Source of the DNA: a virus
Strand: one strand, 5' to 3'
IMG/VR virus record: IMGVR_UViG_3300045911_000181
Location: 1-56,720 of that record
Length of the DNA stretch: 56,720 nucleotides
In this document: positions 1 through 55,716 of the stretch, one piece after another
Position numbering within the stretch: position 1 is the first letter of the stretch
Layout of the letters: each line of letters starts with the position of its first letter
Translations under genes and position numbers: made by a program
Notes under the pieces: model-generated
Databases searched by the model: none
Told to the model about the DNA's origin: nothing
What the model saw: only the letters and a program-made list of their open reading frames with translations

Positions 1-79
1 GGAAACAGGCAAAGTGGGCGAACCCACGTTTGCTCAGTGTGCCGGGACCGCCCAATTCGTAAACCACATGGTAGCTCAT
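1..79 (-). CDS. Hypothetical protein, N-terminal fragment
   Basis: Reads leftward from an ATG at 79-77 and runs off the window edge; about 26 residues are visible, beginning MSYHVVYELGGPGTL. No family is recognisable. The start is supported by a strong promoter just upstream (-35 at 114-109, -10 at 91-86) whose -10 box lies six bases before the ATG, so the message is probably leaderless. A GGAG lies between the -10 and the ATG but is too close to the predicted transcription start to act as a normal ribosome binding site. Confidence 0.55.
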   Translation of the reverse strand, partial: MSYHVVYELGGPGTLSKRGFAHFACF

Positions 80-85
80 GACTCC

Positions 86-114
86 ATCATACCGGAGCAC
101 GACCTATATGTCAA
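86..114 (-). promoter_or_regulatory. Sigma70-like promoter, TTGACATATAGGTC family
   Basis: On the minus strand TTGACA (114-109) and TATGAT (91-86) are separated by 17 bases. The bases after the -35, TATAGGTC, recur at other promoters in this window. The next ATG (79) begins six bases past the -10 box. The -35 overlaps the stop codon of the gene at 111-344. Confidence 0.8.
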
Positions 115-344
115 CCCCCATTTTGGCTGTTGGTGTCGAACTTGATGCCGATGAGAACTTCGATGCTTTCAATCTTGTGCTTGATGGTTTGAAGCTGTGT
201 CGCCAAGGACTCAGCATCCATCTTCGTCCACATTCGACGTAACAGCCGAAACTGTTTGTCAATGTCGGTGAATAGTTGATCTGCGACTACTCGATTTTCT
301 TCAACGATGTTCAGAAACTTGTTGTGGTCAAGCGGCATTAGCAT
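111..344 (-). CDS. Small helical hypothetical protein
   Basis: About 77 residues, starting MLMPLDHNKFLNIVEENR. The ATG at 344 has GAGG four bases upstream; an ATG two codons later is also possible. The sequence is charged and predicted helical with heptad-like hydrophobics (KMDAESLATQLQTIKHKIES), suggesting a coiled coil. Its start overlaps the 3' end of the nucleotidyltransferase gene, so the two are probably co-transcribed and translationally coupled. No function can be assigned. Confidence 0.6.
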   Translation of the reverse strand: MLMPLDHNKFLNIVEENRVVADQLFTDIDKQFRLLRRMWTKMDAESLATQLQTIKHKIESIEVLIGIKFDTNSQNGG

Positions 345-1104
345 CAATCCTCAAATGCTTCCTCAGAATGTAGCGGGCCAGATCCCGGATCGCTTGCTTG
401 TCAGGTTCGTCCGGGAGAGAACTAGCCGCCGCTGCCTCTTTAGATGCTTCCAAGAGCCGCAAGATTTCGGCGCGGCCTTGTTCATATGTCCACGCGCCTT
501 CGCGAATGGCCTTCAGTTCCTCAGCATCAATGCCGCGCCGGTCAACCAACAGCGCCGCCCCGTTGCATGAGAAGAACTCCCCGATCATACGCGCAAGGCG
601 GACGGCATGATACATGTACTTCGTATCGAACCCGAACTTGTCGCGGATGGCTTTGCGCTTGGCACCCATCCGGCCCGTCGCCGGGTTGTCAACTCCCATC
701 TTCTCAAGCTGACGGAAAGCATATCCAGCGAAGCTGTCAATGGCCCTCTTCGAGTTGAAAAGATGACGGTTGTCAATGAGTACCTGACCCAACGGGTCAA
801 CATACTCATAGTTGCTCACCCACAAAAGCGGGATCACATTCGGATTGAAATTCTGGCAAAGCCGCATGAATTTGGTGAGTTCATACGACGTTTCTTCGGA
901 CAGCAAATTGCCATCCTCATCCTTCTCTTTTTTCTCCATCGTGCCTTGCGATCCGAACCAGTCGAGTGACAGGTACACTTGATCGGACGCGGCGACGACT
1001 TCCATGAAATCTGTGTCAGATTCCGGCGTCGATGTGCCATAGGCATGGCTTCCGACTTGCGCTCTGAGTAGGGTCTTTTCTGGAATTAGCGGTGGAACTT
1101 GCAT
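328..1104 (-). CDS. RlaP-like predicted nucleotidyltransferase
   Basis: A 258-residue protein of the polymerase-beta-fold nucleotidyltransferase superfamily (PF10127/RlaP type). The N-terminus carries the GS motif and metal-binding acidic pair: GSHAYGT then ESDTDF about nine residues on (near residues 19-33). The rest is helical, with KRKAIRDKFGFDTKYMYHAVR typical of the family. RlaP-type enzymes are linked to RNA repair, and a Ro60 protein is encoded 4.5 kb away. A TTG start 30 bases upstream is possible, but the ATG at 1104 is favoured because the divergent dut gene starts at 1142. Family assignment is good; the substrate is unknown. Confidence 0.8.
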   Translation of the reverse strand: MQVPPLIPEKTLLRAQVGSHAYGTSTPESDTDFMEVVAASDQVYLSLDWFGSQGTMEKKEKDEDGNLLSEETSYELTKFMRLCQNFNPNVIPLLWVSNYEYVDPLGQVLIDNRHLFNSKRAIDSFAGYAFRQLEKMGVDNPATGRMGAKRKAIRDKFGFDTKYMYHAVRLARMIGEFFSCNGAALLVDRRGIDAEELKAIREGAWTYEQGRAEILRLLEASKEAAAASSLPDEPDKQAIRDLARYILRKHLRIDANAA

Positions 1105-1141
1105 GGGAATATCGGAACAGGTCCGTATAAACAATCATCAC

Positions 1142-1651
1142 ATGGCAAAGAAAACGCAACTTTCCTTTTTCAAGGTCAATCCCAACGCCGAACCGCCCGC
1201 CTACGGCACGCAGGATTCCGCATGCTTCGATTTCAAGGCTTGCCTCATCGGGGAACGAGTTCGAGGATTCGACCGCAACAACAAAGAGTTCGTCACGCCG
1301 CTGAGCGACAAGATCGTCATCAATCCCGGTGAACGTGTTCTTGTTCCCACCGGCCTGATTCTTGACATCCCCGAAGGATATTCCGTCCGGCTCCATGCCC
1401 GCTCCGGTTTGAGCCTGAAGCAAGGTCTGGTGTTAGCGAATGCTGAAGGTGTCATCGACAGCGACTATGTTGATCCCACCTACATCATGATGTCCAATAT
1501 CTCCACTGTCATGGCAACCATCAAACACGGCGACCGCATCGCCCAAGGTGAACTGGTCCCTGTGTACCCGGCTGACTTCAAAGAACTCAAGCAAGCACCC
1601 GGCAAGAAAACGGATCGTCAAGGCGGTCTTGGATCAACAGGAGTGAAGTAG
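1142..1651 (+). CDS. dut: dUTP diphosphatase (dUTPase)
   Basis: Hydrolyses dUTP to dUMP and pyrophosphate, keeping uracil out of phage DNA and feeding thymidylate synthesis (a ThyX is encoded at 50.7 kb). All five trimeric dUTPase motifs are visible in order: QDSACFD, HARSGLSLKQG, ANAEGVIDSDY, GDRIAQGEL and the C-terminal arm RQGGLGSTG. At 169 residues it is a little longer than the usual 150, owing to an insertion after motif 1. The start MAKKTQLSFF at 1142 is chosen over an in-frame ATG at 1103, because family homology begins at the former and the latter would overlap the divergent gene. Confidence 0.95.
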   Translation: MAKKTQLSFFKVNPNAEPPAYGTQDSACFDFKACLIGERVRGFDRNNKEFVTPLSDKIVINPGERVLVPTGLILDIPEGYSVRLHARSGLSLKQGLVLANAEGVIDSDYVDPTYIMMSNISTVMATIKHGDRIAQGELVPVYPADFKELKQAPGKKTDRQGGLGSTGVK

Positions 1652-3253: not shown

Positions 3254-3261
3254 CATAAATA
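3254..3261 (+). promoter_or_regulatory. T4-type late promoter
   Basis: CATAAATA, close to the T4 late consensus TATAAATA recognised by gp55-RNA polymerase. The ATG of the next gene begins at 3268, six bases past the TAAATA element, so the late transcript would be leaderless. Confidence 0.72.
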
Positions 3262-3267
3262 CGTTCG

Positions 3268-3420
3268 ATGCTCAGCTTTCAATCTTTTCTAGCCGAAGTG
3301 TCGAACGCGGAAGCGACCGTCATCAATCTTCTTCGTCTGGCAGATCGCCCCGGAACCCCACACGAAGGGGAAATCGCCTTGGCGCAAGCCAAGAAGCTGG
3401 CCGCTTGCGCGCCAAGATGA
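3268..3420 (+). CDS. Short DUF2786-like protein with capsid-targeting-like N-terminus
   Basis: Fifty residues. It begins MLSFQSFLAEVSNAEA, which resembles the capsid-targeting sequence of T4 internal proteins (MKTYQEFIAE), and continues with RPGTPHEGEIALAQAKKLA, the helical DUF2786 signature also present in the large protein at 3888-5387. It ends abruptly in that helix; the stop overlaps the ATG of the next gene (ATGA). Together they may be one protein split by a frameshift, or two coupled genes. A late promoter directly precedes it. Confidence 0.6.
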   Translation: MLSFQSFLAEVSNAEATVINLLRLADRPGTPHEGEIALAQAKKLAACAPR

Positions 3421-5660: not shown

Positions 5661-7322
5661 TTAGGCGGTAGTGGCTTCCGTTTCGTCTTCCGATCCCGCC
5701 CGGCGGCTGGTGCCACCGCGCATGAAATCGGCCAACAGAACCGGCACGTTGGCGTCGAAACCAACGAAGTCCATCATACCCATATCCTTCGGATCGGCGA
5801 TGGAGAACGGCGTCGCAGCCGTGGCGATGACCGCCAGCTTCGCGTTCGGCTTGTTCCGTTCCTTGCGGTACTTCACAAGCGCTTGCGACGGCTGGATGTT
5901 TCCGGCCCAAGTTTCGCTGTCCGTGATTACCGTGAAACAATCGACGTTCAACTTGTTCTGGATGCCATAGATCATCGGCAAGGAGCAATTCGTACCGCCG
6001 CCAAGATTACGATTCGCCTTCTTCGTTGCCGTTTCCAGCGTATCCTTGGCAGTGATCTTGAGATCGACGAATTGCGTGTCGAACCCACGGATGTCGTAGT
6101 TCTTCTCCGTGCGGATGAAGACCATCGCTTGTGCGGCGGCAATCATCGCATGGGTCAGAGCCGTTCCGTTCCAACTCATCGTCATCGAACCGGACAGATC
6201 GATACCGACCAAGAGGTTCTGACCGGTCGGCTCCACGTTGGCGAAGGTTCCGTAGAACGCATCCATCAACGCATCGACAACCGCCGGAACCACCGGCCAC
6301 GAACCGTTACCGCGCTGACCGTGCCCGGCACCGTAGGCACCGTAGGCCAACAACACCTGAAGCGGGTGTACCCGCGACCGGCGCAAGTATTCGGCATCGC
6401 GCAAACGGCTGGTGACCAGCTTCGACGCATCCGACAGCGGGACCAACAGGCCAGACTTCGACATGTTGCCCAAGTTGCGGATCATGGCCGTCAGCGGCAT
6501 CTTTTGCAAGAGCGCTTCCTGAACCGTCGCGTCGTTGAGGAACTGAGTCGGAATCATCTCCCGCGTCAAACCGTAGTCCGACACGATCTTGATGACTTCC
6601 TTGGCCGAAGTCGCCTTCTTAGCCAACTCAACGCCGTCGATCACACGGGACACATCCGGCTTGTACTCACCCTTGGCCGCGTAACGATAGATCGCGGAGC
6701 GAACTTCGTCTTCCGGCTTCGGGTGAGCCAAACGGAGAATGTCGCGCTGTGCCCATCCCTCACGCTGCTGGTACTTCGCCAACTGGTAGGCCAGATCGCG
6801 CGGCGACTTGACCGCGTACCAGTCCTTCACGGCGCGGGCCAGAACAGCGCCCCAACCGCGAAGCGAAGTCGCGTAGGAAATGAACGAGAACAGATGCGTG
6901 CCCGTGCGCGCGACCACCGGCAACTTCGACGCCGCGTACTGGCGCGTCTCAATGACCGGGGAGTCGGTCGGGGACATGGCAAGTGCCAGCGCAAACAACG
7001 CCGGATCATTCTTCGGTGCCCGGCCCGCGTCGCTGATGCCAGCGATCACATCGACCGTGCGCTTGCCGTCTTCCTTCAAGCACGCAATCACGTTCTTGGC
7101 GTGCTCACGGGTCAGCTTTTCCGCCGATCCACCACTGGCGTAGTAGGCCGGGTTCTCAGACCCAAGGATCAGGAAGCGCTCCAAGAGCGTCCACTTGTCA
7201 ACGGTGAAGACATATCCACCGTGGGCGTTTTGCGCCATTTCATTCTCACGACCCGGAATCGGCTGATTCTGCGGGGTCGTCTTCCGGCTTGCGCCGTGCA
7301 AGCTATAGATGTTCTTTGCCAT
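5661..7322 (-). CDS. Ro60/TROVE-domain RNA-binding protein (Rsr-like)
   Basis: A 553-residue orthologue of Ro60. The HEAT-repeat ring (TROVE) covers about residues 30-360: it opens with a conserved Asn-rich segment (GYVFTVDKWTLLERFLILGSE) and contains helical repeats. A von Willebrand A domain follows with an intact MIDAS, DLSGSM near residue 376, and its partner GGGTNCSLP. Ro60 binds misfolded or damaged RNAs and Y RNAs, and in bacteria couples them to exonucleases. The ATG at 7322 has AAGAGG upstream. It is last in a leftward operon after a macro-domain gene and an unknown gene. No Y RNA was confidently identified. Confidence 0.93.
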   Translation of the reverse strand: MAKNIYSLHGASRKTTPQNQPIPGRENEMAQNAHGGYVFTVDKWTLLERFLILGSENPAYYASGGSAEKLTREHAKNVIACLKEDGKRTVDVIAGISDAGRAPKNDPALFALALAMSPTDSPVIETRQYAASKLPVVARTGTHLFSFISYATSLRGWGAVLARAVKDWYAVKSPRDLAYQLAKYQQREGWAQRDILRLAHPKPEDEVRSAIYRYAAKGEYKPDVSRVIDGVELAKKATSAKEVIKIVSDYGLTREMIPTQFLNDATVQEALLQKMPLTAMIRNLGNMSKSGLLVPLSDASKLVTSRLRDAEYLRRSRVHPLQVLLAYGAYGAGHGQRGNGSWPVVPAVVDALMDAFYGTFANVEPTGQNLLVGIDLSGSMTMSWNGTALTHAMIAAAQAMVFIRTEKNYDIRGFDTQFVDLKITAKDTLETATKKANRNLGGGTNCSLPMIYGIQNKLNVDCFTVITDSETWAGNIQPSQALVKYRKERNKPNAKLAVIATAATPFSIADPKDMGMMDFVGFDANVPVLLADFMRGGTSRRAGSEDETEATTA

Positions 7323-14356: not shown

Positions 14357-14364
14357 TATAAACA
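14357..14364 (+). promoter_or_regulatory. Possible late promoter before uvsW
   Basis: TATAAACA differs from the T4 late consensus by one base and lies five bases before the GTG start of uvsW, the same geometry as the other late promoters here. T4 uvsW is itself expressed late. Confidence 0.5.
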
Positions 14365-14369
14365 CATGC

Positions 14370-15902
14370 GTGGTCGTAATCCGCAAAGTCAACGAATCCT
14401 ATCTTCAGGTTGACGCCGATCCCGGAATCGTTCGAGAGATCAGCGAAGTTCTAACCTTCGAAGTCCCGAACGCACATCACATGCGCCGCATGATGGAGAA
14501 GCGCGGACGCAAGATGTACAACAATTGGGATGGTCGCATCAAGCTGTTGGACTATCGCAATGGCGCGGCCTACCTTGGTCTTCACAGATTCATCCGGCAA
14601 TACTGCGAAGAGAACAATTACGAAGTTCAGTACGAAGACAACTTCGATTCTGAAAATCCGTTTTCCTTGTGGGAAGCGCGAAAGTTCTTCGAGTCTCTGA
14701 AGCTGTCTGTACAGGGAAAGCCGCTGGATGTGCGCGACTATCAAGAGCGCGCGTTTGTGCATGGCGTTCAGCGCCGCCGGGCTATCCTCGTTTCCCCAAC
14801 AGCGTCCGGCAAGTCCCTCATCATCTATTTGCTCTTGCGGTATCTCCAAACGTACAAGATGGGAGATCCCGCGCGCGGGGACGCGGGGAAGATTCTTGTC
14901 ATTGTTCCGACTACATCGCTGGTCGAACAGATGTACTCCGACTTCGCCGATTACAGCGCGGCTGACCCGGATTGGAACGTCGAAGAGAATGTCCACCGGG
15001 TTCACTCCGGGGCCGAACGAAACACGGATCTTCCGATCACGGTGACGACGTGGCAGTCCATCTATCGCATGGATGAAGAGTGGTTCTTACAGTTTCACGG
15101 AGTCGTCGGTGATGAAGCCCATCAGTTCGATTCCAAGTCGCTCAGCAAGATCATGTCTTCGCTGACGAACGCGGCCTATCGTTTCGCCACGACCGGCACA
15201 CTGAAGGGTTCGATGGTCAATGAAATGGTGCTGGAAGGTCTGTTTGGTCAGGTATACAACGTCACCACGACGCGCGAACTCATGGACGCCGGGACGGTCG
15301 CGGATCTGACGATCAAAGCACTGGTGCTTCGGTACTCCGATGAGGATTGCCAGATCATCAAGGGTGCCGACTTCCATGCGGAGCGGGACTACATTTCCGC
15401 CCACACGACCCGCCGCAACTTCGTCCGCAATTTGGTTCTCAGCCTGAAAGGAAACACGCTGGTCCTTTTTGCGCTGGTGGACAAACAGGGAAAACCGCTG
15501 TATGAGTCGATCATGGAGCGGGTGGAACCGGGCCGGAAGGTCTTCTACGTTTCCGGGGAAACCGAAGCTGACGACCGGGAACAGGTGCGCCAGATCACCG
15601 AACAGGAAGAGAATGCCATCATCATCGCCAGCTATGGCGTCTTTTCGACCGGCGTCAATATCCGCAATCTGGACAATCTGGTATTCGCCGCCGGGACCAA
15701 ATCCAAGATTCGGACCCTTCAGTCCATCGGGCGCGGTCTTCGCAAGAGCGACCGGAAATCGACTGTTACGGTGTTCGACATCGTGGACGATTTGAGCGTT
15801 AAGTCCAAGAAAAACTTCGCTTTACTGCATTTCGCCGAACGTCTGGCGTTCTACGCGGCGGAACAGTTCCGGTACAAGATTTACCGGATTGACCTGTCGT
15901 GA
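14370..15902 (+). CDS. uvsW: UvsW-type DNA/RNA helicase
   Basis: A 510-residue superfamily 2 helicase, the same size class as T4 UvsW (about 500). N-terminal substrate-recognition domain about residues 1-110; motif I PTASGKS near 143; motif II DEAH near 248; motif III TGT near 278; motif VI QSIGRGLRK near 450. UvsW unwinds R-loops and branched recombination intermediates and drives the switch from origin- to recombination-dependent replication. It starts at GTG; the ATG four bases earlier is out of frame and soon stops. Next to gp55 and close to uvsY. Confidence 0.94.
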   Translation: MVVIRKVNESYLQVDADPGIVREISEVLTFEVPNAHHMRRMMEKRGRKMYNNWDGRIKLLDYRNGAAYLGLHRFIRQYCEENNYEVQYEDNFDSENPFSLWEARKFFESLKLSVQGKPLDVRDYQERAFVHGVQRRRAILVSPTASGKSLIIYLLLRYLQTYKMGDPARGDAGKILVIVPTTSLVEQMYSDFADYSAADPDWNVEENVHRVHSGAERNTDLPITVTTWQSIYRMDEEWFLQFHGVVGDEAHQFDSKSLSKIMSSLTNAAYRFATTGTLKGSMVNEMVLEGLFGQVYNVTTTRELMDAGTVADLTIKALVLRYSDEDCQIIKGADFHAERDYISAHTTRRNFVRNLVLSLKGNTLVLFALVDKQGKPLYESIMERVEPGRKVFYVSGETEADDREQVRQITEQEENAIIIASYGVFSTGVNIRNLDNLVFAAGTKSKIRTLQSIGRGLRKSDRKSTVTVFDIVDDLSVKSKKNFALLHFAERLAFYAAEQFRYKIYRIDLS

Positions 15903-16011: not shown

Positions 16012-16143
16012 TCAGTATCCGAAGTGAGACTTGATGAGATTCATCACCAAGATGAACCACGCAATTCCTACGACGGATAGAAAGATCCATCCGACGAACA
16101 ATGCCATCGCGATCTTCACAACGAATCGCAGAAAGGACAACAT
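16012..16143 (-). CDS. Small single-pass membrane protein
   Basis: Forty-three residues: MLSFLRFVVKIAMALFVG, continuing hydrophobic (FLSVVGIAWFILVM) and ending NLIKSHFGY. One long or two short membrane helices with a basic N-terminus. Support comes from a well-formed promoter just upstream on the same strand (TTGACT...TATGCT) whose -10 lies eight bases before the ATG. No family recognised; probably an early inner-membrane protein. Confidence 0.6.
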   Translation of the reverse strand: MLSFLRFVVKIAMALFVGWIFLSVVGIAWFILVMNLIKSHFGY

Positions 16144-16151
16144 ATGCCTTG

Positions 16152-16180
16152 AGCATAACAGGGATGGACATATAAGTCAA
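16152..16180 (-). promoter_or_regulatory. Early-type promoter overlapping the gp55 start codon
   Basis: On the minus strand TTGACT (16180-16175), 17-base spacer, TATGCT (16157-16152). The flank TTGACTTATATGTC matches the TTGACATATAGGTC family. The -35 covers the A of the gp55 ATG on the opposite strand, so polymerase bound here could hinder gp55 expression. Confidence 0.72.
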
Positions 16181-16764
16181 TGGAGCGCAAGAAAAATCAG
16201 TACGTGGACAACAAAAAGCTATACGACGCCCTTGTCGAATGGCTGAAGGACCGAAAGACGGCACAGAAGAACAAGGCGGCGCAAATGCCACCGCTTCCCG
16301 ATTACATCGGTGAGTGTATCTTGTTGATGGCTAACCGGTTAGCTCAAAAGGCCAACTTCGTCAACTACACTTTCAAGGACGATATGATCGGCGACGCGAT
16401 GGAAAACTGTCTCCGGTATCTTCACAATTTCAATCCGACCCGGAGCACGAACGCCTTTGCGTATGTGACACAGATCCTTCGCAACGCTTTCGTTCGCCGG
16501 ATTACGCGGGAACGTCGGAACTCCTACACTAAGGCCGTGCTCATCAGCCACGGCATGCCGGGCTACACCGTTCAGGATGGCGATGAGAACGACTACACGA
16601 ACACCTACGTGGACTTCCTTCAGGAGAATGTCACGGATGTGATTGAGAAGTTCGAGTCCGCCAAACAGCGGAAGAAAGCCCGCCAACAGAAGAAGGTCGG
16701 TCTGGAAAACTTCTTCGTGGAAGAAGCGGCGGCTACCGAAGTCGTCGGGGCCGGGACGCGATAA
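16180..16764 (+). CDS. 55: Late-transcription sigma factor gp55
   Basis: A 194-residue sigma factor (T4 gp55 is 185). The alignment with T4 is recognisable along its length: YVDNKKLYDALVEWL (T4 YVNNKELLQAIIDW), ILLMANRLAQKANFVNYTF, MIGDAMENCLRYLHNFNP and AFAYVTQILRNAFVRRITRER (T4 AYITQACFNAFVQRIKKER). It directs host RNA polymerase to TATAAATA promoters, activated by the clamp gp45, and both are present here. The C-terminus ends in an acidic/hydrophobic region that may bind the clamp. The ATG overlaps a promoter on the opposite strand. Confidence 0.94.
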   Translation: MERKKNQYVDNKKLYDALVEWLKDRKTAQKNKAAQMPPLPDYIGECILLMANRLAQKANFVNYTFKDDMIGDAMENCLRYLHNFNPTRSTNAFAYVTQILRNAFVRRITRERRNSYTKAVLISHGMPGYTVQDGDENDYTNTYVDFLQENVTDVIEKFESAKQRKKARQQKKVGLENFFVEEAAATEVVGAGTR

Positions 16765-20641: not shown

Positions 20642-20671
20642 TTGACATATAGGTCCGCATCATGCTACTCT
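20642..20671 (+). promoter_or_regulatory. Promoter of TTGACATATAGGTC family
   Basis: TTGACA (20642-20647) with the conserved TATAGGTC flank, 18-base spacer, TACTCT (20666-20671). The ATG at 20679 lies seven bases past the -10, predicting a leaderless message. Confidence 0.7.
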
Positions 20672-20678
20672 AGGTGTG

Positions 20679-22925
20679 ATGCGGATCGAAGTTAACGAAA
20701 CACTAGCCCGGATGCTGGCAACGGAAAACCTGCACATCCGTTACAGCCATACTGCGAAGACTGCCCACTTCGATGTCAAGACCCGCCTCTTGACCCTTCC
20801 GCTCTATTCCCGCCTCGAACAAATCATTCACTTGCTGTTGGCCGGGCACGAAGCATTTCATGCTTTGTGGACCAAGATGGATCGCGTACAGGCTTCGCGT
20901 CTGATTGATGCTGACCCGAAGAATGAGAAGCGCGCCGCCCGGTACGTCAACATTTGTGAAGACGTGCGCATCGAAAATTTGGGCAAAGAACTCTATCCCG
21001 GCATGCGCAAAGTATTCCGCGACGGATACAAGATTTTGGTCAAGGCCGGGTTCTTCGGCAATATGTCCAAGATCAGCAAGATGAGCTTGATCGACCGGGT
21101 GAACATCTATTTCAAGGCCGGTGCGACGATTGATGTCTCGTTTTCCGAACAGGAAACCCCGCTGGTCCAAGCGATCAATAAGGCCCGGTCGTTTGACGAA
21201 ATGATCGCGGCGTGCCGGGCGATCTACGAATTCGCCAAACAGCAACAGCAACCGGAAGATGAGCCGGATCAGGACCAAGATCAGGATCAGGACGATCAGC
21301 AGCAACAGAAGTCGAAGTCCAAATCGAAGTCGAAGAAGGATCGCGAAGAGTCCGAAGAGGACGAATCCGAAGACGGTGAAGAGTCGGAAGAAGACGAAGA
21401 TTCGGAATCTGAACAATCGGAAGACGGCGACGAATCCGAAGATGGCGATGAAGAGTCGGATGCCGGTGATGACGAAGGCGACGACGGGGACGATGAACAG
21501 GAATCCGAAGGCGAAGATGGCGACGGCGATGAAGATTCGGATGCCGGTGATGACGACGCTGATGGTGATACTGATGATGGCGACGACAGTGAAGGCGATG
21601 GTGACGAAGATTCTGACGCTGACGCTGATGACGACGACGGCGGCAAGGAAACCACTCAAACCAAGCCACAAGACAAGCTGGAAGAGGGAAGCACCCAAGA
21701 CGAATTCGACAAACATCTTGCCGATCACTGCGACCCGCAAGAGTCGTATATCTATGCGACCTTGCCGAAAGTCAAGACCGTGGCCGCTGTTGTGGATTAC
21801 AAGATCGTGTTGGACGAACTGACGAAGGCATGTGCGAAGGCGGCGGCGAAGGATTCCAGCACGCCGGGCATCAAGAAGTATGTGCCGAAGAAAAGCTGGT
21901 TCGATCAGATCATGCGATCACTTGACCCGGACGTGCTCTACATGGTTCAGCAGTTCATGATGATGCGCCGGGCCGATCAGCACGCGCGCACGCGCACGGC
22001 TTCGACTGGTGATATCGATATGACGAAGTTGTGGTCACACCGCGTCAATGACAACATTTTCGCGACTACGGAAATCGTACCGGACGACAAGAATCATGGA
22101 TTGATATTGGTGGTGGACTGGTCCGCTTCGATGAAAAGTCCGTTGTTCGATGTTATGGTTCAGCTTCTTGCTCTGATGCTGTTTTGCCGGAAGGCGGGCA
22201 TTCCGTTCGAAGTTTACGTGTTCATCACCCGCGATTCCACGAAGGGTAGTAGTTTCATCCCGGCGAAAGATTCAGTGAACGTGGAAGGTTCCACGCGGCT
22301 GTACAACATCTTCTCTAGCCGTATGCCGCAAGCGCATTTCTACCAGATGTGTTTGATGATGTTCAGTTCGTTCGACGGGCGGGAGTTCAAGTCGCCGCTG
22401 GACTATCTGAATCTTCGGTACGGCACGCCATTGGGCGAAGCGATGTTGATTGCCAGTGAGATTGTCCCGGTATTCCAAAAGAACAACCGGCTTCAGTTCG
22501 TCCACACTATCTTCCTGACAGACGGGGACGGAAATAGCTCCATGACGGTATGCGCGAATCAGCTTGAAGATCAGATCACGCGCCGGACGTATAGCCCGAA
22601 ACCGGAAGAACATCAGATTGAAGTTCTTCATCTGTTGCCCCGGATCGTCCGGGAGCGGACGCGGGCGAAAATGATCGGGTTCTATGTCGGTGGTCCTACA
22701 CAACGGATGCTTCAGGACTCGAAGATGACGTACAGGGAAGCGAATGATTTGCTGTCGAAAGAGGGATTCATGAAGGTCGGTGGGACCAACTATGATGCTT
22801 TCTTCGTGCTGAATCCGGCCATGAGTGTGCCACAAGCCGCCACGAATGGCGACCCGACAGCACAGATTCAGATGCGCCGGAAGTCGCGGGTGATGTTGCA
22901 ACAATTCATCAAGATGATTGCTTGA
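20679..22925 (+). CDS. Metallopeptidase-like plus von Willebrand A protein (CobT/CoxE-like)
   Basis: About 748 residues. The N-terminal domain has GHEAFH near residue 57, a zinc-metallopeptidase HExxH form, followed by NICEDVRIE, the usual third-ligand motif of this family. Residues about 190-325 are an extremely acidic linker of Asp/Glu/Ser/Gly repeats. The C-terminal vWA domain has the MIDAS DWSASM near 480 and a conserved FLTDGDG. It is the vWA partner of the MoxR/CobS-type ATPase encoded next. T4-like cyanophages carry a similar peptidase/CobS pair. A GTG one codon upstream is an alternative start. Confidence 0.85.
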   Translation: MRIEVNETLARMLATENLHIRYSHTAKTAHFDVKTRLLTLPLYSRLEQIIHLLLAGHEAFHALWTKMDRVQASRLIDADPKNEKRAARYVNICEDVRIENLGKELYPGMRKVFRDGYKILVKAGFFGNMSKISKMSLIDRVNIYFKAGATIDVSFSEQETPLVQAINKARSFDEMIAACRAIYEFAKQQQQPEDEPDQDQDQDQDDQQQQKSKSKSKSKKDREESEEDESEDGEESEEDEDSESEQSEDGDESEDGDEESDAGDDEGDDGDDEQESEGEDGDGDEDSDAGDDDADGDTDDGDDSEGDGDEDSDADADDDDGGKETTQTKPQDKLEEGSTQDEFDKHLADHCDPQESYIYATLPKVKTVAAVVDYKIVLDELTKACAKAAAKDSSTPGIKKYVPKKSWFDQIMRSLDPDVLYMVQQFMMMRRADQHARTRTASTGDIDMTKLWSHRVNDNIFATTEIVPDDKNHGLILVVDWSASMKSPLFDVMVQLLALMLFCRKAGIPFEVYVFITRDSTKGSSFIPAKDSVNVEGSTRLYNIFSSRMPQAHFYQMCLMMFSSFDGREFKSPLDYLNLRYGTPLGEAMLIASEIVPVFQKNNRLQFVHTIFLTDGDGNSSMTVCANQLEDQITRRTYSPKPEEHQIEVLHLLPRIVRERTRAKMIGFYVGGPTQRMLQDSKMTYREANDLLSKEGFMKVGGTNYDAFFVLNPAMSVPQAATNGDPTAQIQMRRKSRVMLQQFIKMIA
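21256..21655 (+). repeat. Low-complexity region encoding acidic linker
   Basis: Degenerate repeats of GAT/GAC/GAA/TCG codons encode the acidic linker. Because of this composition long spurious open frames appear on the other strand. Slippage and copy-number change are likely here. Confidence 0.85.
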
Positions 22926-22950
22926 CATGTATGTTATTTCAGGGTAGAAT
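22922..22950 (+). promoter_or_regulatory. Sigma70-like promoter, TTGACATGTATGTT
   Basis: TTGACA (22922-22927), 17-base spacer, TAGAAT (22945-22950), overlapping the previous stop codon. The ATG at 22958 lies seven bases past the -10: predicted leaderless. Confidence 0.82.
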
Positions 22951-22957
22951 GGAACTG

Positions 22958-24115
22958 ATGACAACTTCACGTACCGGCAAACTGACAAACGAACAGAAAA
23001 AGTTCTTGGCGGCGGTGGCGGCGGAATTCAGCACGAACGGCGAATTGCCTTCGTCGATCACGGTTTCTCAAATTTCCCTGTTAGTGGGTCGCGGATACAA
23101 GCGTCCGAATTGGCTCATGACGCGGGACAACCAAATGTCCAAGGACCGCTTCATGCTGGCCGAAGCGTTGTGGCAAGCGGCGGATTTACAAGCACCGGAC
23201 ACGATGTCTTCTCCGGGTAAACTGGATGAAGACACCGTGCAACCTCTTACCGAATTTGTTCCCGACCGCGACCCGCTTTATGTCCCGGAAGGGTCCTACT
23301 TCAAACTGGTGAAGCTGTTCAAGTCGAAGCGATGGGTGCCCATGTGGATCACCGGTCCCACTGGCGTCGCGAAGACTATGAGCATCGAACAGGCGTGCGC
23401 CGTCGCCGGGCGTGAATTTTTCCGCATCCAGATTACGAAAGAATCGGACGAAGCGGCGCTATTGGGAACGTTTCACCTTCGTAATGGGGAAACCGAGTTT
23501 GTTCAGTCGCGTGTTATCACGGCGATGGAACGCGGCGGCGTTCTTCTTCTGGACGAATGCGATTTGGCTTCGGATAAGGCCATGTGCCTTCAGCCGGTGC
23601 TCGAAGGCAAGTCGGTCTATCTGACCCGCGCCAATCGCACCGTGACGCCCGCGCCCGGCTTCCAGTGCGTCGCGACGGCAAACACGAAAGGGCGCGGCGA
23701 CGATACCGGGATGTACTTCGGGACCAACATGGTCAACGAAGCGTTTCTGGACCGCATTGCGGCCATGACAATCGATCACGGTTACCCGCTGCCAGCCAAT
23801 GAGCGCACGATTCTGAAACGGATCATGCAAGCGGCTGGCATCATGGACGAACAGTTCATCGTTCAGCTTGTCGCATGGGCCGGGAAGTGCCGTGAGAACT
23901 ATGACCAAGGGGTCATTTCGCACACGATTTCCCCGCGCCGGTTGTGCCGCATTGTCGAAGCCTATGCCGTATTTGAGGACAAAGAGGATGTGGTGGATAT
24001 GGCTCTGGCCCGCTTCAATTCGGTGGATCGCGCCGCGATGAAGGGCTACTACACGATGTTCAACGGCACGACGGTACCGCCGGATCGCTCATCGAATCAG
24101 TCTCCGACTTGGTAA
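22958..24115 (+). CDS. MoxR/CobS-type AAA+ ATPase
   Basis: About 385 residues, starting MTTSRTGKLTNEQKKFLAAV. N-terminal helical region about 1-60; AAA+ core with Walker A GPTGVAKT near 133, Walker B VLLLDECD near 197, sensor 1 VATANTKG near 250 and an arginine finger LDRIAAMTID. It closely resembles phage 'CobS' proteins. CobS works with CobT in cobaltochelatase, but many relatives are MoxR chaperones paired with vWA proteins; the gene just upstream supplies that partner. An earlier in-frame ATG overlaps the -10 box, so 22958 is preferred. Confidence 0.88.
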   Translation: MTTSRTGKLTNEQKKFLAAVAAEFSTNGELPSSITVSQISLLVGRGYKRPNWLMTRDNQMSKDRFMLAEALWQAADLQAPDTMSSPGKLDEDTVQPLTEFVPDRDPLYVPEGSYFKLVKLFKSKRWVPMWITGPTGVAKTMSIEQACAVAGREFFRIQITKESDEAALLGTFHLRNGETEFVQSRVITAMERGGVLLLDECDLASDKAMCLQPVLEGKSVYLTRANRTVTPAPGFQCVATANTKGRGDDTGMYFGTNMVNEAFLDRIAAMTIDHGYPLPANERTILKRIMQAAGIMDEQFIVQLVAWAGKCRENYDQGVISHTISPRRLCRIVEAYAVFEDKEDVVDMALARFNSVDRAAMKGYYTMFNGTTVPPDRSSNQSPTW

Positions 24116-24200: not shown

Positions 24201-24926
24201 ATGTCAATCAAACTCACACCAGACACCATCGCGATTCTCGAAAACTATGCTGCCATTGCGAAGGGCGTCATCCTCAAGCCGGGCCGGGAACTCAAGACAC
24301 TGAGCAAGTCCGGGGCATCGGCGGCGGTGGCAACGATCACGGAAGAGTTTCCCCATCAGGTTCCGATCCACGACATTCTGAACTTCCTGAATGTCTTGGG
24401 TCTGTTCAACGAACCGCTCATCGACTTCAATCAAGAGAAGAACTACATGACCATCACCGACGCGACCGACCCGTCGCGGAGCACCCGGTTCATGTACAGT
24501 GCGCCGGAACTCATGCGTTCTCCGTCCGGGCGCATCAAGCCGTCCGGCCCGGAAGTTCGTTTCAAGCTGACCGAATCACAGTTGGCGGTTTTGGTCAAGG
24601 CGACGGCGGTGCTGAAGAAGCCCGAATGGGCGGTCATCAGCAACGGCAAGACCATCAAGCTGGTCACCTACAACAGCAAGGAACCGAACAGCAACGACTT
24701 CTCATTGGTCGTCGAAGGCGAACCGAACGGCGTGGAATGCACTTCGGTGTTCAGCTTCGAAAACATCCGGTTGCTCAAGGGCAACTACGAAGTGATCGTG
24801 ACTGAGCAACTGGCGCAATTCACCAACACGGATCGCGCTTCGAACGGCGGCGAACTGGTTTACTGGATCGGCGTCGAAGCCAGCACGAAGTTCAATCAGA
24901 AGCGCGGCGAAGCCGCCGGGAACTAA
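24201..24926 (+). CDS. 45: gp45 sliding clamp
   Basis: A 241-residue clamp subunit (T4 gp45 is 228), forming the trimeric ring that holds DNA polymerase and, loaded on DNA, activates gp55-dependent late transcription. It starts MSIKLTPDTIAILENYAAI after GGAGAG; TRFMYSAPELM and FKLTESQLAVLVKATAVLKK match the clamp second domain. Followed after nine bases by gp44, then gp62, the T4 clamp operon order. Identity rests on sequence pattern plus this order. Confidence 0.93.
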   Translation: MSIKLTPDTIAILENYAAIAKGVILKPGRELKTLSKSGASAAVATITEEFPHQVPIHDILNFLNVLGLFNEPLIDFNQEKNYMTITDATDPSRSTRFMYSAPELMRSPSGRIKPSGPEVRFKLTESQLAVLVKATAVLKKPEWAVISNGKTIKLVTYNSKEPNSNDFSLVVEGEPNGVECTSVFSFENIRLLKGNYEVIVTEQLAQFTNTDRASNGGELVYWIGVEASTKFNQKRGEAAGN

Positions 24927-26398: not shown

Positions 26399-26622
26399 CT
26401 CTTCGGCGGCGACGGCGGAATCAATTTCGCAATACGCGGCTTGAAGATTTTCTGATCGCCTTTGTTCGTATGCGCGACGGGCTGACCGTGTTCGTCGCGC
26501 GAAAACCCTTTGATCGTGGCGCGGCGGTTCTTGAATTTTCCCACCAACAATTCGTCACCGACTTCCAGCTTCGGAAGTTCCAGTTCGGCGATGAATTCAG
26601 CGAAAGATTTCACGGGCACCAT
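26395..26622 (-). CDS. Small virion-type protein with capsid-targeting-like N-terminus
   Basis: Seventy-five residues. VKSFAEFIAELELP closely resembles the capsid-targeting sequence of T4 internal proteins (MKTYQEFIAE) including a downstream LxLPKLE that could be a prohead protease site. The rest is a small beta domain: VGDELLVGKFKNRRATIKGF and KGDQKIFKPRIAKL, a pattern recalled from other T4-like phages. Transcribed from its own leaderless late promoter, facing away from neighbours. Likely packaged in the head. Confidence 0.72.
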   Translation of the reverse strand: MVPVKSFAEFIAELELPKLEVGDELLVGKFKNRRATIKGFSRDEHGQPVAHTNKGDQKIFKPRIAKLIPPSPPKS

Positions 26623-26626
26623 GATA

Positions 26627-31828: not shown

Positions 31829-32301
31829 TGCCGTCTTTCAGCACCATTACGAAACAGCCGAATGAAGCCGCTGGCGTTCTTCCCATTTGCGTGAAGACAC
31901 AGCGGATGTGTTTTCTTTGGCGCGCGCCGGGATCTGACTTTGGAAACGTTTGGGGACTGCCCGGCGGCGGTATGGATGAGGGTGAGACACCGGAGCAATC
32001 AGCGCGCCGGGAGTTGGTCGAAGAGACGGGCTACGAAGGGCCGGTCAAACTGATCCCTTCTTACGTCTACGAATCCGAAAAACTCATCTTTCACAACTTC
32101 ATTGGATTGGTGCCAGAAGAATTCTCGTTTCATCCAAAGGACTTCGAGTTCGCGCAAGAACACACGCGAATGGAGTGGATGTCATGGATTCAGTTCTGTG
32201 CCCGGCTGGACGCGAACATCAAGAACTTCCATCCCGGCATCGTTGAGTTCTTCTTCCATCATCAGGACGACATCAAGAAGCACATCCGTTATCAAGGTTG
32301 A
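31828..32301 (+). CDS. Nudix hydrolase
   Basis: A 157-residue Nudix protein with a canonical box, GGGMDEGETPEQSARRELVE followed by ETGY, near residues 50-72. It cleaves nucleoside diphosphates linked to another moiety; candidates include ADP-ribose, NAD(H), oxidised dNTPs and capped RNA. The neighbouring NAD-related genes make ADP-ribose or NAD plausible, but nothing fixes the substrate. A promoter follows within its last bases. Confidence 0.9.
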   Translation: MPSFSTITKQPNEAAGVLPICVKTQRMCFLWRAPGSDFGNVWGLPGGGMDEGETPEQSARRELVEETGYEGPVKLIPSYVYESEKLIFHNFIGLVPEEFSFHPKDFEFAQEHTRMEWMSWIQFCARLDANIKNFHPGIVEFFFHHQDDIKKHIRYQG

Positions 32302-32326
32302 CATATAGGTGACGGGTGTGTCATCA
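32298..32326 (+). promoter_or_regulatory. TTGACATATAGGT element, weak -10
   Basis: TTGACA with conserved TATAGGT flank at 32298, directly at the end of the Nudix gene. At 17 bases the -10 would be TCATCA, a poor match. The next ATG is at 32337. The conserved -35 flank makes a regulated promoter likely. Confidence 0.5.
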
Positions 32327-32336
32327 TGGTAGTTCT

Positions 32337-32585
32337 ATGAAGGAATTCTGGCTCAATGGGCGCAAAGTCGCCTTTACCACGTCGTATACACCCGGCTTCG
32401 GATTCGCCAAGGTCGGAGACGTACAAGTCATGGAAGAGCATTCCATTGGCGTTGGTGATGATGATCCGCCCACTGCGATCCGATATAAACACACGGCGTC
32501 GTTCATCATCATGGGCGATGCTGTTTCGTATTTGCGCGGGAAGTATCCGGCGGCGGATGAACGGCTGGCGGGAAAGGCCGCGTAA
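32337..32585 (+). CDS. Hypothetical protein
   Basis: Eighty-two residues (MKEFWLNGRKVAFTTSYTPG). The first part is beta-type, with VGDVQVMEEHSIGVGDDDPP; the end is a helix with YLRGKYPAADERLAGKAA. Start at the ATG after a promoter element. The stop overlaps the next start (TAATG). No family recognised. Confidence 0.6.
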   Translation: MKEFWLNGRKVAFTTSYTPGFGFAKVGDVQVMEEHSIGVGDDDPPTAIRYKHTASFIIMGDAVSYLRGKYPAADERLAGKAA

Positions 32586-41929: not shown

Positions 41930-42674
41930 GTGCCCATTTGGTATCCGTGTCTAGTTCGCCGTTGTTGCGGACCAGTTCGTGATACCACTTGCCCTTTTTG
42001 GTCTTGTAGGCATACATGCCTTTGTAGCCATGCGCCCGGTCTTTCTTGCCTAGTGCCGCTGCCCACTGTGATGTGGAGAAATACTTGTAGTCCGCGTATT
42101 CGTCGCCGTACTTCTTGAAGTGCTCATCGGCGTCGATGCCTTCAGACAAAGCATTTCCTTTCGGCTGGTAGGAGTTCGAGAAAGCCGAAATCGGCGACCG
42201 GCTACCGCGACCCTTGTTATAGTCGGACGGCCACGGCATGCGTTCATTCCACTTTGCGTCCTTTTCAGCCTTGCTCAGCGGCTTCTTTTCGACGGCCTTG
42301 AATCCTTTGTGGTCCGGGTTGGGTTGCGGTGTCACGATCCCGCCGATGCTTTTTGCATAGTGATTTGCGGCATTCTTGTCGGCAAATTCACGCGCTCCAA
42401 CCCACACATGCTGTGGAGCTTCTTTCAGCTTCGCGGCGTTGGTCCATTCATCGACTTTCTGTTGCTTGGCGGCTGAGAACAGATCGATGTCCGGGTTGAT
42501 AATGATGTCTTCCTTCTCACCGGAAGGTTCTGACAGTTCTTCTTCGTAGTCTTCGTTCACTTCCGCACAGCCACATGTGTCAGCGTCGCCGCCGCATACT
42601 TCACACACCGGCACGTTGTCGATCACTTCGCGGATTGACTTGAGAACGGCTTCGTCAACTTGCATGAGGTTCAT
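41892..42674 (-). CDS. Late-expressed hypothetical protein with Cys cluster
   Basis: A 260-residue protein (MNLMQVDEAVLKSIREVIDN). Near residue 24 PVCEVCGGDADTCGC gives a possible zinc site; an acidic stretch follows. The second half has VWVGAREFADKNAANHYAKS and a C-terminal domain rich in Tyr/Trp/Lys (YKGMYAYKTKKGKWYHELVR) that looks like a small beta domain. A late promoter six bases before the ATG implies a virion or morphogenesis role. No family recognised. Confidence 0.65.
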   Translation of the reverse strand: MNLMQVDEAVLKSIREVIDNVPVCEVCGGDADTCGCAEVNEDYEEELSEPSGEKEDIIINPDIDLFSAAKQQKVDEWTNAAKLKEAPQHVWVGAREFADKNAANHYAKSIGGIVTPQPNPDHKGFKAVEKKPLSKAEKDAKWNERMPWPSDYNKGRGSRSPISAFSNSYQPKGNALSEGIDADEHFKKYGDEYADYKYFSTSQWAAALGKKDRAHGYKGMYAYKTKKGKWYHELVRNNGELDTDTKWALTPLQVQKLGLH

Positions 42675-42680
42675 GTTCTT

Positions 42681-42688
42681 TATTTATC
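42681..42688 (-). promoter_or_regulatory. T4-type late promoter
   Basis: On the minus strand GATAAATA; TAAATA ends at 42681 and the ATG begins at 42674, six bases on. Predicted leaderless late transcript. Confidence 0.75.
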
Positions 42689-45127: not shown

Positions 45128-45135
45128 AGTAAATA
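45128..45135 (+). promoter_or_regulatory. T4-type late promoter
   Basis: AGTAAATA; the GTG start at 45141 begins five bases past it. Predicted leaderless late transcript. Confidence 0.7.
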
Positions 45136-45140
45136 TCGGT

Positions 45141-46361
45141 GTGAAACGGACAATCTACGAAGCCCCGACGTGTGACCCCAACCATGTCGTTACGCAATCT
45201 GATTTGAATGCTCTGGAACGGCATTTGGACCAAGTATGGAACAAGTTGGGGATAGATATTGCATTCACGCGGCATTTCTTGGACCGTGTGAACGATGCCC
45301 GGAACGGAAAACAGATCACGCTCTGTGAACTGGCCCGAATTTTTCTGGAGACATTCCGTCAACACGGCAAGAAATTGACCGGCATCAGCGCCCGCGAATG
45401 GGAAGCAGTGTTGTCGGACAAACTGACAAATGTGAACGTGCCGTTCGTTCTGAAGCATAACGGCAAAGAAGTGGAAATCGTGGCAAAGACAGTCATGCGG
45501 AAGCCGAACTTCCACACGCCTGATCCGAAGTTGGTGGTGGCACATTTCCGACAGGGAGAGAAGAAGATGTCAAAAACGTTGCGTGAGTGGACCGGTTTCG
45601 GTCTTCCTCAAAATGATCCTGTGGCCGGTGTCTACGCCGTCGATGATGTCGATGTCAACCCGTCCCAAATCGATGACCCGGAAGTGTTGACCATGCTGAA
45701 TGGTTTCCTTGCGTCTCTGACCAAGAAGACCTTCATCAATCCGTACTATCCTGTCCAACAGGCGTTTTCTAAGCTGAGTGCGGTTGGCCTGTCTTTCCCG
45801 CTACGTGGGTTGGATTTGGGTGGTGATACGGGTGTTGTCCTTGTGCCGGTGTCTCATTTTGGTGGCCGTTTGGGGCGAAACCTTGATGGATCGTGGGCAG
45901 ACAACGACGGTATTTCAGAGAAGATCCCCGGCGGCATCTTCCTCAAGATCACCTACACACAGTCCAATGGTGAGTTTGTAGTGAACATGCAATTGGTCCC
46001 GGCGGAAGATGGGATTCAGTTGGACCCGGACGCTGACGATGAAATGGAACTGGACACCACGGATATCGAAGAGGATGTGACGACCGGAACGTCAGATGCG
46101 ACGACCGATGAGTATCCGTTCGACTCTGACTTCCAACCGACTCAAGACGGTGAGACTATCTTTGACGCCGTGAGCTTCGAATCTTTCGTTGCCAAGGGCC
46201 GGAAGATCGCGGAAGCGGCGAACAGCATCACTGTGAAGCCTTCGACGCGGAAAAAGGGCATGTATGATGTCATCGTCGGAAGCATTCCCCGGATCACCAA
46301 GCCGACCTTGAGGGGTGCCAATGGTTATGCAAGTCGCATCGCCAAGGAAAACCGCACATGA
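45141..46361 (+). CDS. Two-domain late protein of T4-like phages
   Basis: A 406-residue protein from GTG. Domain 1 (about 1-135) contains FTRHFLDRVNDARNGKQIT and VPFVLKHNGKEVEIVAKTVM, then RKPNF; this pattern is recalled from short proteins of many T4-like phages. Domain 2 begins MSKTLREWTGFGLPQND and includes GGDTGVVLVPVSHFGG; it looks like an independent beta domain and could have been a separate gene. After an acidic linker the end is basic (KPSTRKKGMYDVIVG). Late promoter immediately upstream; probably a virion or assembly component. Confidence 0.65.
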   Translation: MKRTIYEAPTCDPNHVVTQSDLNALERHLDQVWNKLGIDIAFTRHFLDRVNDARNGKQITLCELARIFLETFRQHGKKLTGISAREWEAVLSDKLTNVNVPFVLKHNGKEVEIVAKTVMRKPNFHTPDPKLVVAHFRQGEKKMSKTLREWTGFGLPQNDPVAGVYAVDDVDVNPSQIDDPEVLTMLNGFLASLTKKTFINPYYPVQQAFSKLSAVGLSFPLRGLDLGGDTGVVLVPVSHFGGRLGRNLDGSWADNDGISEKIPGGIFLKITYTQSNGEFVVNMQLVPAEDGIQLDPDADDEMELDTTDIEEDVTTGTSDATTDEYPFDSDFQPTQDGETIFDAVSFESFVAKGRKIAEAANSITVKPSTRKKGMYDVIVGSIPRITKPTLRGANGYASRIAKENRT

Positions 46362-55351: not shown

Positions 55352-55374
55352 ACTGAAGAGCAATTCGTCAATGT

Positions 55375-55402
55375 GGCCGGGCCTTCGGGTCCGGCCTTTT
55401 TC
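55375..55402 (+). terminator. Intrinsic terminator (UUCG loop), copy 3
   Basis: GGCCGGGCC-TTCG-GGTCCGGCC followed by TTTTTCTTG. Same hairpin as at 5614 and 45075. Ends the ribonucleotide reductase gene. Confidence 0.95.
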
Positions 55403-55419
55403 TTGAACAACGGGGTTCC

Positions 55420-55427
55420 TGTAAATA
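55420..55427 (+). promoter_or_regulatory. T4-type late promoter
   Basis: TGTAAATA; the ATG at 55435 begins seven bases past it, predicting a leaderless late transcript. Confidence 0.7.
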
Positions 55428-55434
55428 TCAACCG

Positions 55435-55716
55435 ATGGCAGAATCGATCAGCATTTCCGTGGAGTTTGCTTCGTACAGCCGCACCAAGGACAACGAATAT
55501 CTTGGCGAAGAAAAGTTCACGGGTACTCGTTTGACCCAACTGGCACACAGCATCGCGGCGCACATGCTCCCCCTCGAACGATTTCATTCCGGGGTCGAAT
55601 TTGAGATCGTGTCCTACCATCGGCAAGACGTGTCTTTTGACTCCCGGTGCAAGCGGCAATTGGAAGGCATGACTGAAATTTTCCGGGTCCTTGTAGATCA
55701 AGTACTTAAGCGATAA
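55435..55716 (+). CDS. Hypothetical late protein
   Basis: Ninety-three residues (MAESISISVEFASYSRTKDN). A beta strand, a helix (TRLTQLAHSIAAHML), another strand pair (VEFEIVSYHRQDVSFD) and a closing helix. No ribosome site is visible, in agreement with leaderless expression from the late promoter. No family recognised. Confidence 0.6.
   Translation: MAESISISVEFASYSRTKDNEYLGEEKFTGTRLTQLAHSIAAHMLPLERFHSGVEFEIVSYHRQDVSFDSRCKRQLEGMTEIFRVLVDQVLKR

Follow-up and report, generated by a model that had tools for sequence, protein, structure and literature searches.

Early and late promoters set directly before start codons point to leaderless messages in a T4-like phage lineage

The virus record IMGVR_UViG_3300045911_000181 of IMG/VR, a linear fragment of 56,720 bases with a G+C content of 52-57% along its length and referred to here in its entirety as the window, raises the question of where the messages of its genes begin. 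A preliminary description had reported -10 boxes 5-8 nucleotides (nt) before start codons in an early and a late promoter class, and had proposed that the messages start at or next to the AUG or GUG, in a systematic leaderless use of a scale undescribed for T4-like phages. Our analysis suggests that the promoter of many genes is very probably fused to the start codon, so that the message begins within about 4 nt of the AUG or GUG and is translated leaderless. Directly seen are the positions of the boxes, their two-moded spacing, starts consistent with homologues, conservation between species, and the genes for gp55 and a gp45-like clamp.

The genes of the window place it in a T4-like (gp43/gp45/gp55) phage lineage, which is known from metagenomes alone. 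Two close species are found in IMG/VR: species A, consisting of the window and the contigs G1, G6 and G12, which overlap at 99.8-100%, and species B, consisting of G3 (224 kb) and G4 (185 kb), which are 99.9% alike and 85-86% identical in DNA to the four contigs of species A. G7 and G9 (mutual overlap 100%) presumably belong to species A, judging from their 82-87% identity to species B, and a third species with a gp17 that is 81% identical was seen in locus L150. IMGVR_UViG_3300044641_007115 and 3300042433_000146 are identifiers of contigs of the lineage. As these eight contigs overlap, counts from them are not independent.

To quantify the arrangement, every TAAATA on both strands was related to the starts chosen by a home-made coding-score gene caller that is blind to promoters. 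Boxes at 4-9 versus 10-50 nt before a start numbered 4/1 in the window, 26/13 in G3, 20/11 in G4, 8/7 in G7, 4/0 in both G9 and G1, 3/3 in G6 and 1/2 in G12. The corresponding values for T4-like control genomes were 1/29 in T4, 0/31 in S-PM2, 0/26 in Syn9, 4/23 in Mosig, 0/7 in Cr30, 0/22 in phiM12, 2/31 in Melnitz-3 and 1/15 in C48C1, thus 8 of 192 boxes at 4-9 nt for the eight combined (8 vs 184; Fisher P = 5e-18 for G3 and 4e-5 for the window alone), and 10 of 446 (10 vs 436) for 151 other, likewise gene-called T4-like loci. Two kinds of box stand outside these counts: those lacking a called start at up to 50 nt, which number 4 of 9 for the window, 16 of 55 for G3 and 879 of 1,082 for the eight controls, and those just 0-3 nt away from a start, of which the window and G3 have none, the controls 11 (4 of these in Mosig) and the 151 loci another 11. 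In G3, 26 of the 39 late boxes that have a called start 4-50 nt away lie at 4-9 nt. The distribution in G3 is two-moded, with spacings of 5-9 nt, a single case at 11 nt, and then 19-47 nt; 12 of the 39 boxes fall at 19-50 nt. Dinucleotide shuffling of the 60-nt stretches before each of the 330 G3 genes gave an average of 0.48 late boxes at 4-9 nt, with a maximum of 3 in 400 shuffles, against 26 observed, and an average of 0.42 two-box early promoters, against 8 observed. In the window, with the starts chosen by the caller, four late boxes (shuffle 0.04) and two two-box early promoters (0.09) lie at this distance.

Single late genes with TAAATA 5-9 nt before the start also occur in ten other T4-like loci (L162, L170, L172, L185, L186, L187, L216, L221, L225 and L305); four of the proteins measure 1,064-1,150 amino acids (aa) and have similar N-termini, and one resembles a capsid targeting sequence (CTS) at its N-terminus (MKTFKQFQKEN). 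These sporadic cases suggest that the arrangement arises occasionally and was generalised by this lineage. The pattern TAAATAN{4,9}RTG taken by itself was rejected as uninformative in A/T-rich phages, as T4 has 34 matches versus 51 for reversed controls; the same search, made without gene calling, gave 4 vs 2 in DLP6 and 13 vs 14 in KVP40.

In the window, 11 of the 13 sites listed in the preliminary description carry the box that it gave, 5-8 nt before a start codon. The late box TAAATA is found at 3256-3270 on the plus strand (box 3256-3261, 6 nt to the ATG at 3268, with a CTS-like product starting MLSFQSFLAE), at 26620-26633 on the minus strand (box 26633-26628, 5 nt to the ATG at 26622, CTS-like product starting MVPVKSFAEFIAE), at 42672-42686 on the minus strand (box 42686-42681, 6 nt to the ATG at 42674, 260 aa), at 45130-45143 on the plus strand (box 45130-45135, 5 nt to the GTG at 45141, 406 aa) and at 55422-55437 on the plus strand (box 55422-55427, 7 nt to the ATG at 55435, 93 aa). 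Among all nine TAAATA of the window, these five lie 5-7 nt before a start, the one at 3268 having been added by hand as its short open reading frame escaped the gene caller; two lie at 19 and 25 nt, and two have no nearby start codon. The latter, at 15904 and 53356, are both conserved in the other species and are possible promoters of small RNAs or of uncalled genes. The gene at 3268 itself is 264 aa long in species B (G3 68369-69163), while its frame stops after 50 aa in the window, G6 and G12; the alignment with G3 has a 22-nt gap in the window. Of the two sites that had been listed with a "perhaps", 14370 kept its distance (14357-14372, plus strand, 5 nt to the GTG of a UvsW-like helicase gene) with a variant box, TATAAACA in place of TAAATA, that is identical in G3. 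The other, 2332, has TACAAT 6 nt before its ATG but no -35 at a usable distance and was dropped as an early promoter; the alignment to G3 ends short of this ATG.

The early genes show the same closeness with a different, two-part promoter. On the minus strand, TTGACA (114-109) and TATGAT (91-86) precede the ATG at 79 by 6 nt (promoter 80-114), and the orthologous G3 site has its ATG likewise 6 nt past the -10; at 16141-16180, TTGACT (16180-16175) and TATGCT (16157-16152) stand 8 nt from the ATG at 16143 (43 aa) and touch the start of the divergent gp55 gene. On the plus strand, the promoter at 1914-1950 (TTGACA 1914-1919, TATAAT 1937-1942) lies 5 nt before the ATG at 1948 (105 aa), with identical spacing in G3. 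At 20642-20681 (TTGACA 20642-20647, TACTCT 20666-20671), 7 nt separate the box from the ATG at 20679 (748 aa), and compensating indels relative to G3 move the box and leave the distance at 7 nt. The promoter at 22922-22960 (TTGACA 22922-22927, TAGAAT 22945-22950), 7 nt before the ATG at 22958 of a 385-aa AAA ATPase gene (phrog_249), keeps its spacing in G3 despite a 15-nt gap at the coding start. An early-type promoter at 28753-28787, conserved in G3, has a weak -35 (TCGACA 28753-28758), a 14-nt spacer and TATACT (28773-28778) 6 nt before the GTG at 28785 of a 327-aa NUDIX protein gene. Two further plus-strand sites were absent from the preliminary description: a promoter of a second, leadered kind at 27451-27502 (TTGACA, TATTCT 27474-27479), with 20 nt to the ATG at 27500 and the Shine-Dalgarno (SD) motif GGAGAG, and a weak early-type site at 32298-32339, with a -10-like CATCAT ending 9 nt before the ATG at 32337. 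In a relaxed scan of G3, 35 early sites had a start 1-9 nt past the -10 in 15 cases and at 17-20 nt in 12, with GGAGAG in 11 of the 12, and no called start in 8. Strict two-box promoters at 4-9, 10-15 and 16-22 nt numbered 8/1/12 in G3, 2/2/6 in G7 and 2/0/1 in the window.

The early -35 runs on into a conserved GTC and so forms a near-palindrome, TGACATATAnGTCA, which is not needed by sigma-70. It is found in the window at 1914, 20642, 22922, 27451, 32298 and 114 (minus strand), and at 24 sites in G3, across which its positions 12-14 are conserved at 0.83-0.96. With up to two mismatches G3 has 28 matches versus 3 for a scrambled palindrome, and a regulator encoded by host or phage probably uses the motif as its operator. 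The early-promoter pattern was also tried as a finder of wider relatives and dropped: it returned 19 stretches, of which G8, G10 and G11 lie outside the lineage, G8 encoding one protein 50% like G3 gp41 and G11 (which contains G10) none that is similar.

The start codons next to late boxes are backed by the N-termini of homologues, which were matched by eye from printed sequences. For gp20, G3 begins with MPLKLFGF, Mosig, Melnitz-3 and phiM12 with MAELFGF and Cr30 with MELFGF; for gp17, G3 begins with VSITYNANANLK, Mosig with MTDAYLGNPNLK and Cr30 with MTVTSYNGNPNL; for gp4, G3 begins with VPWQGQFRPKN, T4 with MAYSGKWVPKN and Syn9 with MRYQGKYRPS. These agreements support the starts of gp17, gp20 and gp4; gp17 and gp20 of T4 itself did not line up with G3 at the N-terminus. 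In T4 the box lies 26, 28 and 28 nt upstream of gp4, gp20 and gp53 together with an SD motif, in G3 6, 9 and 9 nt upstream without one (the G3 gene is gp53-like by the T4 record). The controls contain 22 genes orthologous to gp4, gp17 or gp20; TAAATA occurs within 60 nt in 7 of them, at 22-29 nt and never at 4-9 nt, and the remaining 15 have none within 60 nt. Conservation within the lineage agrees with this. G3 has 29 boxes at 5-9 nt, of which 16 have a complete alignment to species A and one a partial alignment; the other 12 lack a counterpart in the contigs. Within the 16, in promoter stretches of 83-98% identity, 15 retain the box unchanged, 13 have a spacer of the same length, and all show a distance of 5-9 nt. 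In the third species, where the region before gp17 is 76% identical, the box with 5 nt to a GTG was kept, and gp18 has an SD leader.

How such messages could arise follows from the T4 model, in which the late promoter box is described as spanning -13 to -6 with the transcript starting at the sixth nt past the box (PMC1524935). With the same offset, the messages studied here should have leaders of about 0-4 nt. Late genes would be transcribed by the host RNA polymerase with phage gp55 on TAAATA, starting 6-7 nt past the box, on the start codon or immediately ahead of it. Early genes would be read by a sigma-70-type host polymerase from TTGACATATAnGTC and TAnnnT, with a start about 7 nt past the -10, as is the general rule for sigma-70, and the ribosome would then initiate on the 5'-terminal AUG or GUG. 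This mode would be combined with SD leaders on gp18, gp19, gp22, gp23 and many early genes. The start points, the translation of these messages and a leaderless-competent host are what we infer here, and the likeliest cause is that the phage has adapted to a host in which leaderless mRNA is translated well. The proposal of the preliminary description that transcription begins on or beside the start codon is supported by the spacing peak with its gap and by the homologous N-termini. It also fits the conservation across species and the occurrence of this box ahead of tRNA arrays: in G3, three such arrays have TATAAATA about 190, 350 and 240 nt upstream (boxes 39387-, 129509+ and 208819+); the box would drive these arrays, in which translation plays no part.

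The leaders also differ in content. An SD tetramer (AGGA, GGAG or GAGG at -18 to -4) was found in none of 31 late and none of 14 early leaderless entries of G3, in 7 of 14 late and 11 of 13 early leadered entries, and in 68 of 259 other genes; in G7 the counts were 1/9 and 0/4 for late and early leaderless, 5/8 and 5/10 for late and early leadered, and 29/97 for the others. The leaderless lists take in spacings from 1 nt, and one G3 gene is in both lists. These counts show SD absence, not depletion below chance, since the chance expectation with the box excluded is 0.57 of the 31 late entries; promoter-adjacent leadered genes often have an SD motif. They also weigh less for leaderless messages than they seem to, because the box occupies much of the SD window, making the lack of SD no independent test, and because early entries with GGAGAG past the box had been put in the leadered class beforehand.

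Which genes use which mode can be seen best in G3. Most of its late genes lack the T4-type arrangement of TATAAATA about 20-30 nt before an SD-led start. The leaderless set comprises gp17, gp20, gp4, gp53 and proteins starting M..F..F(I/L).E, whereas gp18, gp19, gp22 and gp23, the bulk virion proteins, have T4-type SD leaders, save for a greater length (31-44 nt), and about half of the early promoters carry short SD leaders that would measure about 10-13 nt. Leaderless use extends to many early and late genes, in a mixture with the SD-led ones, which qualifies the systematic use that had been proposed. The division of the late genes would correspond to low-copy versus high-copy proteins, though the genes are few; copy numbers of virion proteins are those of T4. 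A CTS is a hydrophobic N-terminal motif with a glutamate at its end, following the rule (I/L)xE, and the strict pattern is enriched among the leaderless entries of G3 (7 of 45 versus 3 of 286 others, P=5e-5). N-termini such as MLSFQSFLAE, MKGFHQFLKES and MYTFGQFIRE resemble the CTS of T4 ipII/ipIII, MKTYQEFIAEA, and a homologue of the gp21-type protease, by which a CTS would be cleaved, is present in the lineage. Packaging into the head and injection are predicted for such proteins; the T4 internal head protein genes ipII/ipIII, unlike the CTS-like leaderless genes here, have SD motifs. A tRNA nucleotidyltransferase homologue (phrog_2244, 1.6e-62; L014:12453-13874, minus strand) has a CTS-like N-terminus, MMSFRQFLFESAKAED, with a -10-like TATACT 4 nt before its ATG, and it too may be packed and injected.

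These classes invite the thought of a two-tier programme, in which low-copy proteins, including the predicted head-packed and injected ones, are made from leaderless messages and bulk virion proteins from SD-led ones, in a ratio set by a phage-driven change of ribosomes or initiation factors. It would be a switch similar to that of phage phiYS40 and new for T4-like phages; we consider it unlikely. The idea that the phage itself switches its host to leaderless translation, instead of exploiting a permissive one, draws on the involvement of both early and late genes, on the many proteins of unknown function and on phiYS40, whose infection is reported to raise IF2 and lower IF3 (PMC3594737). We judge it improbable, as leaderless early genes would need translation before any switch, a search of six records of the lineage for S21, IF3_C and S1 domains (E 0.01) gave no match, and the three tRNA-Met genes of G3 and G4, inspected by eye, were without initiator features, having no GGG:CCC anticodon stem and in one case a U1-U72 mismatch.

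Exploitation of a permissive host remains the preferred cause, and clues to such a host were sought in several genes. Both species-B contigs carry a permuted transfer-messenger RNA (tmRNA; L008:4855-5219 and L021:11531-11895, minus strand; Rfam RF04321, 98 bits) with the predicted tag ANSNVLAMAA; RF04321 exceeds its cut-off in one of 14 control genomes, and the best 20 of 61 matches of this tmRNA to phages cover merely 9-11% of it. The permuted form is known to occur in alphaproteobacteria, cyanobacteria and some betaproteobacteria, and we take this one as a hint of a possible alphaproteobacterial host. An OmpA-domain gene of G3 has 17 relatives, the best five of which (40-52% identical) come from Thermoanaerobaculia, Armatimonadota, Chitinophagaceae and Filimonas. 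A search of GTDB species contigs with gp43 found no relative, and comparison of a methylase with plasmids gave no clear taxon.

Two other readings concern the box and the start codon themselves. TAAATA beside a start could be an A/U-rich translation enhancer within a longer message rather than its promoter, as it is A/T rich and near start codons, and transcripts could originate further upstream. This is very doubtful. The box equals the T4 late promoter and gp55 is present, it also precedes SD-led genes at 19-47 nt and tRNA arrays, and early genes show equal spacing with a different promoter. Moreover, 29 of the 55 TAAATA of G3 lie 4-9 nt before a start and 19 other hexamers score lower, led by ATAAAT (13/31) and AATAAA (6/26), both of which can overlap the box, and followed by TATAAT (4/18), TATAAA (4/19) and TATACT (8/44). 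Equally remote is the idea that the box-adjacent codons are unused and the true starts lie downstream, behind a leader: the coding-score choice of starts is imprecise and 26622(-) has an in-frame GTG 9 nt downstream, but the homologous gp17, gp20 and gp4 proteins start no more than 1-2 residues away from the box-adjacent codons, the CTS-like stretches set in at the start or up to four codons from it, and the spacing persists when species A is compared with B, when gp17 is compared with the third species, and across the indels at 20679.

Several observations nevertheless weigh against fusion of promoter and start codon. The start points were extrapolated from T4 and the sigma-70 rule, the start codons rest on a home-made caller, three species are known in the lineage, and some messages may be read through from promoters further upstream. 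A purine occupies nt 7 past the box in 11 (85%) of the 13 leadered late promoters of G3, yet a purine peak at nt 11 equals it, so the start point is not fixed thereby. G7 is less extreme, with 8 late boxes at 4-9 versus 7 at 10-50 nt and 2/2/6 early promoters; Mosig has 4 of 27 boxes at 4-9 nt, and its orthologue of a leadered G3 gene (19 nt) has a 5-nt spacing. In a survey of other T4-like loci (78 gp20 and 74 gp17 genes usable of 80 each, reduced to 74 and 71 by the removal of close relatives), none had the box at 4-9 nt, but most lack an exact TAAATA within 60 nt, just one gp20 and two gp17 genes have it at 10 nt or more, and five gp20 genes have it at 2 nt. Finally, GTG is the start codon of six late leaderless genes with a spacing of 5-6 nt; as a leaderless start it is described as poor in E. 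coli and in Caulobacter, and as better in some actinobacteria (PMC9031893).

Membership in the T4-like group is borne out by other genes of the window. It encodes gp43 (about 40% identical to cyanophage gp43), clamp, clamp loader, UvsX, UvsY, UvsW, a DnaB-like helicase, an SbcCD-type nuclease, primase, ribonucleotide reductase and gp55 (16180-16764, plus strand; phrog_234, late sigma transcription factor, 2e-52; Pfam Sigma70_r2), the G3 orthologue of which is 36.8% identical to T4 gp55. The gp45-like clamp (24201-24926, plus strand; phrog_223, DNA polymerase processivity factor, 5.5e-50) corresponds to a late-transcription coactivator in T4. G3 has T4-like head and tail genes, with gp17, gp18, gp19, gp20, gp21, gp22, gp23 and gp41 among the homologues tested, and the next relatives by gp17 and gp20 queries are about 50-57% identical among the matches listed. 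A Ro60-like protein (TROVE and Ro60 vWA domains; 5661-7322, minus strand) is encoded in the window, and G3 has a cluster unusual for a T4-like phage (L015:2906-7546) of an OmpA-domain protein, a permease-like protein just below the Pfam cut-off and an ABC ATPase.

T4 is a textbook model of timed transcription and leadered translation, with a late promoter that the whole family has conserved. With the same late promoter placed about 20 nt closer, leader and ribosome site vanish throughout this lineage, also in orthologous genes, which makes gp4, gp20 and gp53 matched pairs for the costs and gains of leaderless initiation. The arrangement may serve as a genomic marker for the translation mode of a host, and gene callers that expect SD motifs could put starts in the wrong place in phages of this sort.

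That phages can have leaderless messages is already known; a remark that phage transcripts are often leaderless is found in PMC5312081, and one mycobacteriophage gene was predicted to be leaderless (PMC11373665), while nothing relevant was found in PMC9004378, PMC4287350 and PMC10770324. Among the open-licence PMC matches listed (titles and abstract openings), no report of leaderless genes in T4-like phages was found, and the arrangement is rare in the other T4-like phages examined. The claim that its scale is undescribed in this group fits eight genomes, 151 loci and these literature listings, apart from the sporadic cases elsewhere, and what appears to be new is lineage-wide use with a T4-type late promoter. 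The Thermus phage phiYS40 is not T4-like. Most of its middle and late mRNAs are reported as leaderless (PMC3594737), while here early genes are affected too, SD-led and leaderless genes are mixed, and leaderlessness is predicted from sequence. In Deinococcota, the -10 lies a few bp before the open reading frame and leaderless translation is efficient (PMC12340547), and leaders in Lactococcus cremoris are under 5 or about 40 nt long, with none between 4 and 14 nt (PMC10986495). Both L. cremoris and our lineage are two-moded with a gap, although the early SD leaders of the lineage would fall inside that of L. cremoris, and the cellular genes of both bacterial cases use host sigma factors, whereas the lineage also uses the promoter of a phage sigma factor. 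Zymomonas, an alphaproteobacterium with 119 leaderless among 2,675 pairs of transcription start site and gene (PMC7566282), is a weaker case. Also close are the gp55/gp33/gp45-dependent late promoters of T4 and cyanophages (TATAAATA; NATAAATA in S-PM2; PMC2984593), which share the core box, gp55, a gp45-like clamp and many late genes with the lineage; in T4, S-PM2, Syn9, Cr30 and phiM12, however, 115 of the 116 called starts within 4-50 nt of a box have it at 10-50 nt, and in the lineage it lies mostly at 5-9 nt.

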